Origin: Candidatus Ancillula kalotermitis
Lineage (GTDB): Bacteria; Actinomycetota; Actinomycetes; Actinomycetales; Bifidobacteriaceae
DNA: 45,310 nucleotides
Direction: 5' to 3'
Assembly (NCBI GenBank): GCA_031273495.1
Contig: JAISRT010000024.1
Span: 1 to 45,310, forward strand
The notes under the pieces: model-generated
Databases searched by the model: none
What the model was told of the DNA's origin: nothing
What the model saw: the letters and a program-made list of their open reading frames with translations, nothing else
Program-made: the position numbers and the translations under genes
Shown: in pieces, positions 14,983 to 43,178 of the stretch
Layout: every line of letters begins with the position of its first letter
How positions within the stretch are numbered: position 1 is the stretch's first letter

Positions 14983-16138
14983 CTTTTACCGCGTCGGCAA
15001 CTATTTCTGCAAGGTTCGGCGTAAACACACTCGGGATAATGTTTGCCGTGTGTAACTCGTCGTCACTCATTGAATACGCTAATGCATTAACTGCCGCCAA
15101 CTTCATCTCGTCGGTAATTCTGGTCGCCCTCGCTTCGAGTGCCCCCTTAAAGATGCCAGGAAACGCAATCACATTGTTGATTTGGTTGTCGAAGTCGCTA
15201 CGCCCACTACCGTAGATTTTAGCGCCGTTCTCTAGTGCCACATCTGGCATAATTTCTGGCGTCGGGTTAGAGAGTGCGAATATCACTGAGTCTTCGCGCA
15301 TTTTTTTAACATCGGCCGCAGTAAGAACATTTGGCGCCGACACACCGATGAATAAATCCCTGCCTTCTACCGCATCGCTCAACGTCTGAATCTGCTCTGA
15401 AAACGCATAACCACGAGCGTTCTTGAGTTCTACTGCAAGTTCACGCTTTTCGTCATTTATGCCCTCACGTGTAGAATGGATTGCACCTCGAGAATCACAA
15501 ATCAGTATGTCCTTAACACCGACCTTGAGCAACATTTTCGCAATAGAAATACCAGCCGCACCAGCACCATTAATCACTGCCTTCACCTCGGAGAGCGGTT
15601 TTGCCACCAGACGAAACGCATTGATTACCGCCGCGCAGACAACAATTGCCGTGCCGTGTTGGTCATCGTGGAAGACTGGGATGTTAAGTCGCTCGACTAG
15701 TGCCCGCTCAATCTCGAAACACCTTGGCGCAGAGATGTCCTCAAGGTTTATGCCACCGAAAGTGGGCTCCAGCAACTCAACGGTTCTGACTATTTCATCA
15801 ACATTCTGAGTCCGCAAGCAGATCGGGAACGCGTCCACGCCAGCAAACTCTTTGAATAGTGCACACTTACCCTCCATAACAGGCATCGCGGCTTCAGGAC
15901 CAATATTGCCGAGGCCCAACACAGCAGAGCCATCAGATACTACTGCGACAGTGCGTCCTTTTAGTGTTAACTGGTTCGCGCGCTGTACGTCCTCAGCGAT
16001 TGCGCGACAAGGCTCAGCGACACCCGGTGTGTACGCGATTGACAACTCGTCTTGTGTAGTAATTGGCATGCGCGACTTCACCTCAAGTTTTCCTTGATGC
16101 TTCAGGTGCTCCGCAAGTGCAGTTTGAAAATAGTCCAT
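14972..16138 (-). CDS. malic enzyme (malate dehydrogenase, oxaloacetate-decarboxylating)
   Basis: IAYTPGVAEPCRAI, VAVVSDGSAVLGLGNIGPEAAMPVMEGKCALFKEFAGVDAFPICL, NIPVFHDDQHGTAIV, IFALSNPTPEIMPD. Confidence 0.95.
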   Translation of the reverse strand: MDYFQTALAEHLKHQGKLEVKSRMPITTQDELSIAYTPGVAEPCRAIAEDVQRANQLTLKGRTVAVVSDGSAVLGLGNIGPEAAMPVMEGKCALFKEFAGVDAFPICLRTQNVDEIVRTVELLEPTFGGINLEDISAPRCFEIERALVERLNIPVFHDDQHGTAIVVCAAVINAFRLVAKPLSEVKAVINGAGAAGISIAKMLLKVGVKDILICDSRGAIHSTREGINDEKRELAVELKNARGYAFSEQIQTLSDAVEGRDLFIGVSAPNVLTAADVKKMREDSVIFALSNPTPEIMPDVALENGAKIYGSGRSDFDNQINNVIAFPGIFKGALEARATRITDEMKLAAVNALAYSMSDDELHTANIIPSVFTPNLAEIVADAVKGAI

Positions 16139-16144
16139 ATCAGC

Positions 16145-16150
16145 AGTATA
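16145..16150 (-). promoter_or_regulatory. extended -10, 6 nt before malic enzyme ATG
   Basis: reverse strand: agtgcTATACTgctgatATG. Confidence 0.8.
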
Positions 16151-16344
16151 GCACTAACTTCATTCGCAGGGCGGCGAAGCCACCCTGACGAATTTAGTAA
16201 GTGCTATTCATAACAAATTTAACTTCGAGAGGAAGAACCGCTGCGCTCGCGGGCGGGCGGGTGCGTCTCAGGGTCCCGCGCGCTAGCGCGGGTGGACGCC
16301 GAGCTCTCCTCCCGCTTATTTGCCAAACTCGCAAGCGAGTTTGA
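16145..16344 (-). repeat. composite repeat C/D ending at the malic enzyme -10 box
   Basis: reverse strand: ggtcaaactcgcttgcgagtttggcaaataagcgg...gcagcggttcttcctctcgaagttaaatttgttatgaatagcactta...ccctgcgaatgaagttagtgctatact. Confidence 0.93.
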
Positions 16345-34902: not shown

Positions 34903-36120
34903 ATTAGCACAGGAAAATCTGCGGCTCTACGGTCTTTAACGGCGCTTCTTCTCGGATGCGTTGCGGGTTTTGTCGCCGTTTTTTTGCACCGGATGTGGCT
35001 AAATGCTGTCCTGCCGTTCGGGTTTATCATCGCAATTTTAGGGCTCTTCTGCGCTGGTGTCGTCGTTCGGGCGTATCTTGGCAAAAACTTCACGTACATC
35101 TTTGCGCTTTCCGTTTCGCTGAGTATTTTCTTCCTCGGAACGCTCTCTTCGGGTGACACACTCATCCTCGCTGGCACGATTGAAGGGGAGAAAGGGTATG
35201 CAGGGCTAGTCGGTGTGTGTTTGATGCTCTTCTCGTTCATCTTCCCGTTCCTTGCCTGTCTGCTGCCTGAGAAGTTGTTCACACGGCGTCTGCGTGCTCC
35301 GATTTGGCGAGTTCCTGACGCTGACCTGCAGTTTATGCTCTCGATTGTTGAGATTACCGACGTTATGCTGGAAACCGCGTTTTTGAGCGGTAAGTTCAAG
35401 GCTGAAACTAAGTCGGATTCCACACCTGTGACCGAAGTTGACCGCGACATCGAGAAGTATATTCGAAGTCATATCGAGAGGAAGTTCCCCAACGACGGCA
35501 TACTGGGAGAAGAAGGTGACGACAAACCAGCAAAAAACGGCAGCACGAGGCGGTGGATTGTCGACCCAATTGACGGGACCAAGAATTTTGTCCGTGGCGT
35601 TCCGATCTGCGCAACGCTTATTGCACTCGAGGACGAGGTGACGCTCGAAAATGGTGAACGCATCATCAAGCCAATAAAGTCAATCGTTTCGGCACCACTG
35701 CTGAAGACGCGCTATTGGGGTGTTTCTGATGCTAAAGTGCAGCTCGCCTTCAAGCAGTTTGACCAGTCGAAGCCCGTGCGGATTGAGGTTTCTGGAATAT
35801 CTGACCCGCAGGACGGGACAATTTCTATATCTTCAAGAGGCGGGTGGGCGCAGAATGGGCGCGCGGATTTTATCGACGGTTTGACAAGACGGTTTGCTCG
35901 TACGCGTGGGTTCGGCGACTTCTTTTCGTATATGCTACTTGCACAGGGGAGCGTCGATTGTGCTACTGAACCAGACTTAGAGCTCTATGATATTGCGGCA
36001 CTACTTCCGATCGTCGAGGGTGCAGGCGGTAGGCTAGTTGATGTTGACCAGAATGCTTGGACTACTCGCGCCGGGATACGCTCTGCGCTTGCGACTAATG
36101 GTGCCCTGACACTCACATAA
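34903..36120 (+). CDS. N-terminal multi-TM domain fused to inositol-monophosphatase-like (HisN/histidinol-phosphatase-like) domain; putative ATT start
   Basis: Hydrophobic N-terminus SLTALLLGCVAGFVAVF...; IMPase motifs GEEGDD, WIVDPIDGTKNFVRG, YDIAALLPIVEGAGG. Only in-frame conventional start is TTG 34984, which would remove TM1. Confidence 0.8.
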   Translation: MSTGKSAALRSLTALLLGCVAGFVAVFLHRMWLNAVLPFGFIIAILGLFCAGVVVRAYLGKNFTYIFALSVSLSIFFLGTLSSGDTLILAGTIEGEKGYAGLVGVCLMLFSFIFPFLACLLPEKLFTRRLRAPIWRVPDADLQFMLSIVEITDVMLETAFLSGKFKAETKSDSTPVTEVDRDIEKYIRSHIERKFPNDGILGEEGDDKPAKNGSTRRWIVDPIDGTKNFVRGVPICATLIALEDEVTLENGERIIKPIKSIVSAPLLKTRYWGVSDAKVQLAFKQFDQSKPVRIEVSGISDPQDGTISISSRGGWAQNGRADFIDGLTRRFARTRGFGDFFSYMLLAQGSVDCATEPDLELYDIAALLPIVEGAGGRLVDVDQNAWTTRAGIRSALATNGALTLT

Positions 36121-36352: not shown

Positions 36353-36690
36353 TGACAGAATGGGTCAAACTCGCTTGCGAGTTTGGCAAATAAGCGGAAG
36401 AGGGGTGTCGCGTCCACCCGCGCGCTAGCGCGCGGGACCCTGAGACGCACCCGCCCCAGCGGCGGACAGCGTAGCGAATAGGCGCTCGATTCATTCGGCG
36501 CCGTCAATGAGCGGAGTGTGCTTGAGAAGTGTGAAACACTTCGAGGTCCGCGCCGGAAAGCGACGATATAGCGAGCGTAGCGAGCGCTGAGGAGCGAGGC
36601 TCAAAGCGTGAGCAGCGGTTCGTCTCCCTGACGATTAATCTGTTATGAATAGCACTTATTATTCCGGAGGAAAATTTGCGAATGAAGTCA
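36352..36690 (+). repeat. composite repeat C/D copy A
   Basis: gtgacagaatgggtcaaactcgcttgcgagtttggcaaataagcgg...gttatgaatagcacttat...gcgaatgaagt. Confidence 0.88.
36417..36436. repeat. 20-bp perfect palindrome inside composite repeat copy A
   Basis: CCCGCGCGCTAGCGCGCGGG. Confidence 0.98.
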
Positions 36691-36971
36691 AATATGGTCA
36701 AACTCGCTTGCCAGTTTGGCAAATAAGCGGAAGGAGAGCTCGAGAGGAGAGCGCAGCGGTTCTTCCTCTCGAAGTTAAATTTGTTATGAATAGCACTTAC
36801 TGAATTCGCCGCATTTGGTTCGATCGCTCCGCGCTCTCATTACGCCCCTCGCACAGGCTTCGCCAGTGCTCAAACACACTCCACTCGCTTTACGCCGCCG
36901 AATAAATCGTCGGCTGCTCGCTACGCTGGGCATGTGCTTCGCCACCCTGCGAATGAAGTTAGTGCTATACT
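36691..36971 (+). repeat. composite repeat C/D copy B ending at the TPM gene -10 box
   Basis: ggtcaaactcgcttgccagtttggcaaataagcgg...cagcggttcttcctctcgaagttaaatttgttatgaatagcacttactgaattcg...ccctgcgaatgaagttagtgctatact. Confidence 0.93.
36966..36971 (+). promoter_or_regulatory. extended -10, 6 nt before TPM gene ATG
   Basis: agtgcTATACTacagatATG. Confidence 0.8.
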
Positions 36972-36977
36972 ACAGAT

Positions 36978-40634
<3,657 letters not shown>

Positions 40635-42349: not shown

Positions 42350-42883
42350 TTATCGCTCGTCAAGCACTGCGCGAACTATATCCTCAACGCTGGCTAGTGC
42401 GCCACGTCCCTCCACTCCACACGCTAGTCGGGCTGTCCGCGGCTCGATGACTTCCCAGCCGCGGTTTCGCAAAGTTTCTAGGTTACTGCGGGTTGCAGCG
42501 TTCTCAAGCATCACGGTGTTCATTGCGGGGGCGACCACTTTCCTTGTCGCGTCGGGGAGTGCGAGAACCATAGAGCTTAACTGGTCGTCAGCAATGCCGT
42601 GCGCAATTTTAGCGATGATGTTCGCGGTTGCGGGGGCCAAGCAAAATACATCGACACTCTGCGGAAGGTCAACGTGCACAATTTTCTCTGCCACTGGTTC
42701 GTCAAGCACATCGAGATAGACATAATTCTGGCTCAGCGCTTGCATAGTCAGTGGTGTGATGAACCCGCAGGCATGCTTACTCATTACCACGCTCACTTCG
42801 ATATCACGTTTTTTGAGCGCAGAAACAACATCGGCCGCCTTGTATGCAGCAATCGATCCAGAAACACCGAGCAGTACCTTAAT
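42350..42883 (-). CDS. coaC: phosphopantothenoylcysteine decarboxylase (CoaC domain only); putative ATT start
   Basis: IKVLLGVSGSIAAYKAADVVSALKKRDIEVSVVMSKHACGFITPLTMQALS, LAPATANIIAKIAHGIADDQLSS, APAMNTVML. Confidence 0.9.
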   Translation of the reverse strand: MKVLLGVSGSIAAYKAADVVSALKKRDIEVSVVMSKHACGFITPLTMQALSQNYVYLDVLDEPVAEKIVHVDLPQSVDVFCLAPATANIIAKIAHGIADDQLSSMVLALPDATRKVVAPAMNTVMLENAATRSNLETLRNRGWEVIEPRTARLACGVEGRGALASVEDIVRAVLDER

Positions 42884-42889
42884 TCCATT

Positions 42890-42895
42890 AGTATA
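42890..42895 (-). promoter_or_regulatory. extended -10, 6 nt before in-frame ATT of coaC
   Basis: reverse strand: tcgtgcTATACTaatggaATT. Confidence 0.75.
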
Positions 42896-42957
42896 GCACG
42901 ACACCCCTCTTCCGCTTATTTGCCAAACTCGCAAGCGAGTTTGACCCATTCTGTCAC
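42890..42957 (-). repeat. truncated composite repeat C abutting the coaC promoter
   Basis: reverse strand gtgacagaatgggtcaaactcgcttgcgagtttggcaaataagcggaagaggggtgtcg identical to 36352-36410, then tgctatact. Confidence 0.95.
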
Positions 42958-43178
42958 CCTTGGCTTTATGCCACGCTGCGCTGGGATGACACTGCGAGGG
43001 TGTAATGAGAGCGTGGAGCGTGTGTCATTCTTGGCTTTATGCCGAGAATCTATAATGGCATGACTGACGCGTGGATCCTCGGGACAAGCCCAAGGATGAC
43101 ATGGTGGCGCGGTGTGTCCGTTACCGTGTGTCACCCTTGGCGTCCCATGTCACCCTTGGGCTTGTCCCGAGGGTCCAC
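42950..43178. repeat. repeat family B cluster
   Basis: tgtcacccttggctttatgcc, cctcgggacaagcccaaggatgacatg, tgtcacccttgggcttgtcccgagggtcc. Confidence 0.92.

Follow-up and report, generated by a model that had tools for sequence, protein, structure and literature searches.

Introduction

The bacteria in which leaderless mRNAs have so far been studied start them with AUG only, or with AUG and GUG, and do not allow start codons that match these in the first two letters alone. The AUU start of Escherichia coli infC, the same codon as that proposed for the coaC gene described here, is found there in a single gene that is leadered and controlled by IF3. In mycobacterial reporters, a 5'-terminal ATG or GTG was both necessary and sufficient, and other codons were inactive there (Shell et al. 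2015, PMC4633059). In E. coli, only AUG has been reported to work in leaderless translation, with GUG, UUG, and CUG being no substitute, and the route is IF2 dependent, antagonized by IF3, and possibly based on 70S initiation (PMC4611024); discrimination against AUU is a property of IF3 (cited in PMC4611024). Within the same family as the organism studied here, leaderless starts accounted for 10-15% in Bifidobacterium pseudolongum by Cappable-seq (PMC4782308). Mammalian mitochondria are more permissive, and AUG, AUA, and AUU at or near the mRNA 5' end all initiate with formyl-methionine (PMC5203842).

The coaC gene examined here presents ATT where a 5'-terminal AUG is found in E. coli and a 5'-terminal AUG or GUG in mycobacteria (PMC4611024, PMC4633059). 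Like the mycobacterial leaderless mRNAs (PMC4633059), those predicted here are actinobacterial, have the start codon as their 5' terminus, demand a purine followed by U, and reject CTG and TTG; unlike them, they would also start with ATA, ATT, ATC, GTA, and GTT, codons that are not used in this genome behind Shine-Dalgarno (SD) sites. With E. coli they share the 5'-terminal start codon, which is AUG only in that species (PMC4611024). In the literature searched, subscription papers being outside its scope, no prior report of leaderless AUU, AUA, or GUA starts in bacteria was found.

The genome is a metagenome-assembled genome (MAG) of 1.07 Mb in 62 contigs, 81% complete, with an assembly that contains no 16S rRNA, of which 1.04 Mb (97%) was analyzed as stretches. 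"The window" refers to the whole 45,310-nucleotide stretch that carries coaC.

The coaC locus and its candidate ATT start

The coaC gene, predicted to encode phosphopantothenoylcysteine decarboxylase, occupies 42350..42883 on the minus strand of the window, with 177 codons counted from ATT and a TAA stop at 42352-42350. From 42898 to 42878 the minus strand reads TGC-TATACT-AATGGA-ATT-AAG, followed by GTA CTG. These letters comprise a predicted extended -10 element, TGC-TATACT (42890..42898; TGC at 42898-42896, TATACT at 42895-42890), with a PWM score of 18.5, a 6-nt spacer, AATGGA (42884..42889), and the candidate leaderless start codon, ATT (42881..42883), exactly 6 nt 3' of the -10 and within the 6-7 nt expected for leaderless genes. 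A sequence-only reading of this DNA had reported the same letters at this place, with the ATT in frame exactly 6 nt after the -10 box and the ATG inside the spacer (aATGga) out of frame, and all of this was confirmed. The TATACT box was likewise present, but that reading had missed both its extended form and its genome-wide recurrence with other non-ATG codons.

The spacer fits the A-G-T-G-A-T consensus of leaderless ATG genes; AATGAT and AGTGGA serve as spacers elsewhere in the genome, the same promoter and spacer as those of coaC are followed by ATG at L174:3483-3500, and the out-of-frame ATG in aATGga merely fits this consensus. Since the sequence is a MAG consensus and there is an ATG five bases 5' of the ATT, a sequencing or assembly error might be suspected, having either turned ATG into ATT or dropped a base and shifted the frame of the spacer ATG. 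However, a single base separates the spacer ATG from the -10, too little for it to be transcribed, for which reason we reject it as a frameshifted start of coaC; in addition, the spacer is standard for its promoter class, and the same base would have to be wrong in dozens of genes. Error is a highly improbable source of the ATT.

The coaC promoter score exceeded the median of 17.6 for the 114 leaderless ATG genes described below. Because a promoter match this good occurs at 6e-5 per strand position, its exact gap of 6 nt to the first codon predicted by homology is unlikely to be accidental. Residues 2-173 of CoaC matched positions 2-173 of the 177 in NCBIfam model TIGR02113 (coaC_strep; E 1.5e-63) with a score of 213.9 bits, which is below the curated cut-off of 261.4. 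The coincidence of protein residue 2 with model position 2 bears out the earlier claim that the ATT stands where CoaC proteins normally begin. Furthermore, the closest homologue among the genomes compared, in the same-genus genome G002, reads TGaGATAAT-attatt-ATG, with GATAAT rather than TATAAT as its -10, and its ATG aligns with the ATT to within one residue, so that a relative of the same genus does carry ATG at this codon, as the sequence-only reading had proposed to check.

No CoaB domain is present in the coaC ORF, and a CoaB-like ORF, assigned by eye, lies apart from it at L171:298-934, upstream of infC and of apparent rpmI and rplT genes; with the CoaB-like gene located elsewhere, a separate CoaC would be needed. 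The apparently stand-alone CoaC is most like Streptococcus and Clostridiales CoaC, at 55-60% identity, and its matches in named genomes are mainly from Firmicutes, the others being distant. In the related genomes except G002 and G013, either there was no coaC match or it lay within a longer ORF, of the size of a fused CoaBC. A horizontal gain of coaC is possible on this sequence pattern.

Repeats of the CCAAGGGTGACA / TGTCATCCTTGGG type and of the CGCTTGCGAGTTTG palindrome family are dispersed over intergenic stretches, among them 42899-42967 of the window, and their 14-mers reach counts of up to about 160, which is abundant for a 1.07-Mb genome. The repeat at 42899..42967 (minus strand) abuts the coaC TGC, ending at 42899 next to TGCTATACT. 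Its core is present in 26 copies in 1.04 Mb, and a second copy in the window, with its core near 36371 on the plus strand, shares the identical letters AGAATGGG...CGCTTGCG...GGGGTGTCG. In agreement with the earlier claim, this repeat contains every upstream in-frame start codon of coaC (minus strand: GTG at 42904-42902, TTG at 42934-42932, and ATG at 42949-42947).

Translation of coaC could in principle begin at the GTG (42904) or the ATG (42949) on a longer transcript from another promoter, adding 7 or 22 residues, and this reading draws on the frame being open to 42949 and on GGAAGAGGG, a weak SD-like stretch 5' of the GTG. However, both codons are repeat borne and lie upstream of the -10, so that any N-terminal extension would be encoded by a dispersed repeat; the extension has no counterpart in the CoaC model, whose beginning falls at the ATT, and the exact gap-6 promoter would be left unexplained. 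Moreover, an upstream start is not available at all in five comparable genes discussed below (tgt, tyrA, priA, cinA, and glgX). We consider an upstream start of coaC unlikely. The preferred reading, a leaderless ATT start, is supported by the gap-6 register, which is that of the genome's own leaderless class, and by agreement with both the family model and the G002 alignment. We conclude that coaC probably starts at a leaderless ATT at the very 5' end of its mRNA, with both the transcription start site and the N-terminus as predictions from sequence.

A predicted leaderless promoter class

Within the first third of ORFs, 81 TANNNT hexamers were spaced exactly 6 nt from an ATG that followed them; the numbers at other gaps were mostly 6-18, with 26 at gap 7, and 13 were found deep in genes. 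The aligned sites gave a sharp consensus, GTGC-TATACT-AGTGAT-ATG. By standard promoter geometry, transcription is expected to begin on the start codon itself when the hexamer ends 6 nt ahead of it, and genes of the gap-6 class are predicted to have leaderless mRNAs. A canonical example in the window is GTGCTATACT-ACAGAT-ATG at 36962..36980 on the plus strand (PWM 20.6). The window also holds a second ATT-start candidate, a histidinol-phosphatase-like ORF at 34903..36120 on the plus strand, with an N-terminal hydrophobic segment and preceded by TGCTATAAT-AGTGAA-ATT, which has no in-frame ATG, GTG, or TTG upstream before a stop codon and whose next such codon is codon 27.

Another dispersed repeat (...GAATGAAGTTA), present in 38 copies in 1.04 Mb, itself ends in a leaderless promoter, ...TGCGAATGAAGTTAG-TGCTATACT-ASTGAT. 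In many copies the promoter is exactly six bases away from a start codon, such as ATT of tpiA, ATT of prfB, ATC of ispG, and ATA of glgX, and two copies with outward-facing leaderless promoters are in the window, near 36940-36980 on the plus strand and near 16136-16175 on the minus strand. The 11-mer of this promoter repeat was absent from the stretches of G001, G002, and G010. We suggest that portable promoters of this kind may have landed at gene starts and displaced the original starts, so exposing a two-letter rule of initiation.

Candidate ATH and GTH starts across the genome

The start class was counted over 1.04 Mb as sites with a PWM score of at least 9 and a gap of 6, where the triplet is followed by an in-frame ORF of at least 100 codons. 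The triplet counts alone are uninformative, because promoters may favor A-T at +1/+2; the evidence lies in the in-frame ORFs. Canonical codons at this register were followed by such an ORF at 114 of 133 (ATG) and 11 of 15 (GTG) sites. The ATH codons had such ORFs at 18 of 47 (ATA), 15 of 36 (ATT), and 5 of 18 (ATC) sites and the GTH codons at 7 of 30 (GTA), 5 of 18 (GTT), and 1 of 4 (GTC), for a total of 51 of 153. Second-base variants of ATG were near background (AAG 3/16, ACG 1/10, and AGG 1/11; together 5/37), as were pyrimidine-initial codons (CTG and TTG 1/15, CTH and TTH 0/13; together 1/28), and all remaining triplets gave 15 of 277. When sites with an ATG, GTG, or TTG in the next 10 codons were removed, 30 ATH/GTH sites stood against 2 of the 277 of the rest. 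The pattern was absent or weak at gap 5 and neighboring registers, and spacer composition was alike in ATG and ATH/GTH genes. A simpler -10 definition gave the same picture, with 34/126 for ATH versus 37/927 for other codons (Fisher p 3.7e-15) and 11/65 for GTH (Fisher p 1.3e-4).

These counts are of sites, and the gene lists include some ambiguous members: ispG and ruvB have an ATG or TTG a few codons downstream, lepA has a canonical codon further downstream, and rsmA has a GTG just before the proposed start. With a background of about 5-8%, some ten of the 51 ATH/GTH sites are perhaps due to chance, which leads to an estimate of 30-45 genes. Thus, while the sequence-only reading of an unusual leaderless AUU start at coaC is supported, its view of coaC as one odd gene is not, since coaC would belong to a group of roughly 30 to 45 genes whose leaderless start shares no more than the first two letters with AUG or GUG.

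Alignments of individual proteins point to the same codons. Against their family models, residue 2 of TyrA (GTT) fell on position 2, residue 2 of IspF (ATA) on position 1, residue 3 of AcpS (ATT) on position 3, residue 4 of ArgC (GTA) on position 2, residue 6 of PrfB (ATT) on position 2, and residue 6 of Tgt (GTA) on position 1. MetF (ATA) aligned residue for residue with its ATG-started orthologue in G010. The G002 orthologue of sufB (ATC) reads TATAAT-attagt-ATG, that of tyrA has ATG at the same position behind GATAAT-gtatat, and the G010 orthologue of tgt has ATG behind TATAAT-attaact. No canonical in-frame start was found upstream before a stop codon in tgt, tyrA, priA, cinA, glgX, prfB, nadE, or the NAD kinase gene, and the next downstream start is at codons 48, 26, 41, 41, 42, 17, 47, and 24, respectively.

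These distances also bear on whether the -10 elements are real but serve leadered transcripts translated from a downstream start codon. This may hold for some genes in which an ATG follows within 12 codons. In coaC, however, the next start is codon 29, past GSIAAYKA; a start at codon 26 would cost TyrA its GLGLIGG, and the losses would be longer still in tgt (48), cinA (41), priA (41), and glgX (42). A downstream start of coaC is barely conceivable.

A further alternative is that coaC has lost its start, ATG having become ATT in a gene that is dying or unexpressed, and that the other cases likewise reflect decay. The genome is small, the family has strongly reduced members, and loss is usual in shrinking genomes. 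Nevertheless, the ORFs are intact and include many core genes (prfB, tpiA, acpS, nadE, the NAD kinase gene, and sufB), and the third base alone is changed (51/153 for ATH/GTH versus 5/37 for second-base and 1/28 for pyrimidine-initial variants), where random loss would hit all three positions; relatives with leaderless genes, moreover, show hardly any such changes. Because only third bases changed and core genes are intact, decay is a poor explanation, and we hold it to be very unlikely.

Shine-Dalgarno sites and relatives

A relaxation of start codons everywhere in the genome was rejected, since SD-led sites showed no excess of ATH/GTH. In a strict test that excluded nearby canonical starts, SD-spaced positions gave 12/1498 for ATH/GTH versus 73/14338 for other codons (p 0.10), whereas leaderless positions in the same test gave 13/191 versus 4/927 (p 9e-8). 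Relatives were compared as stretches of G001 and G002, of the same genus, and G010, of the same family. Together, these had 48 leaderless ATG/GTG sites, and ATH/GTH accounted for 2/138 in them versus 45/191 here (p 5e-10). With no excess at SD sites and no such pattern in the relatives, the relaxation appears specific to the leaderless class and, among the lineages tested, to this lineage. We think it likely that leaderless initiation in this species depends on no more than the first two bases of the codon (RUN), the third-base check being systematically dropped, while SD-led starts remain conventional. The family pattern, with small and large genomes, would fit the termite-flagellate Bifidobacteriaceae of PMC11707648.

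Possible mechanism

In the mechanism that we propose, coaC would be transcribed from the extended -10 TGC-TATACT, with the A of the in-frame ATT as the predicted start point, giving a leaderless mRNA whose first codon is AUU. Initiation at AUU would most likely use the initiator tRNA (anticodon CAU) with formyl-methionine, pairing at two positions, by the leaderless route, presumably on 70S ribosomes or IF2-assisted 30S subunits. This route would check for A or G and then U but not the third letter, and AUA, AUU, AUC, GUA, and GUU would thereby serve beside AUG and GUG. A lineage-specific change in the ribosome or its factors may have relaxed the third-base check. At the level of sequence, the proposal draws on the promoter register, the in-frame ORFs, the N-terminal alignments, the third-base specificity, and the absence of the pattern at SD sites and in relatives.

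Several candidate causes were considered. A changed initiator tRNA anticodon was rejected, as the one gene found, whose 5' end is cut by the contig end, has an ordinary CAU. Loss of IF3 was rejected because infC is present, and it appears to start with TTG behind AGGAG. Loss of the 16S methyltransferases RsmH and RsmI was also rejected, rsmH and rsmI both being present. Two genomes of the same genus have rsmI matches, at G002:C94:4601-5284 and G003:C72:996-1730, that contain in-frame stop codons. The molecular cause of the relaxation was thus not found among the initiator tRNA, IF3, RsmH, and RsmI in this 81% complete MAG without 16S rRNA. The tilS gene is present, which argues for ordinary decoding of AUA as isoleucine.

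The mitochondrial acceptance of 5'-terminal AUA and AUU is best regarded as a parallel and not as membership of one class, with the bacterial case being a prediction from DNA. Mammalian mitochondria rely on one tRNA-Met, whose anticodon is modified, and AUA means methionine inside their genes; here, the initiator anticodon is ordinary, and GUA and GUU are included.

Implications

Acceptance of AUN and GUN only on leaderless mRNAs would separate start-codon checking in the leaderless and leadered routes, in a manner that resembles mitochondria. It would make testable what reads the third start-codon base of a leaderless mRNA, and which change in the ribosome or its factors turns that reading off. 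If the two-letter rule is true, roughly a quarter of the recognizable leaderless genes in this genome have starts that gene finders refuse, and in genomes of this kind many genes will be shortened, lengthened, or overlooked by standard gene calling.
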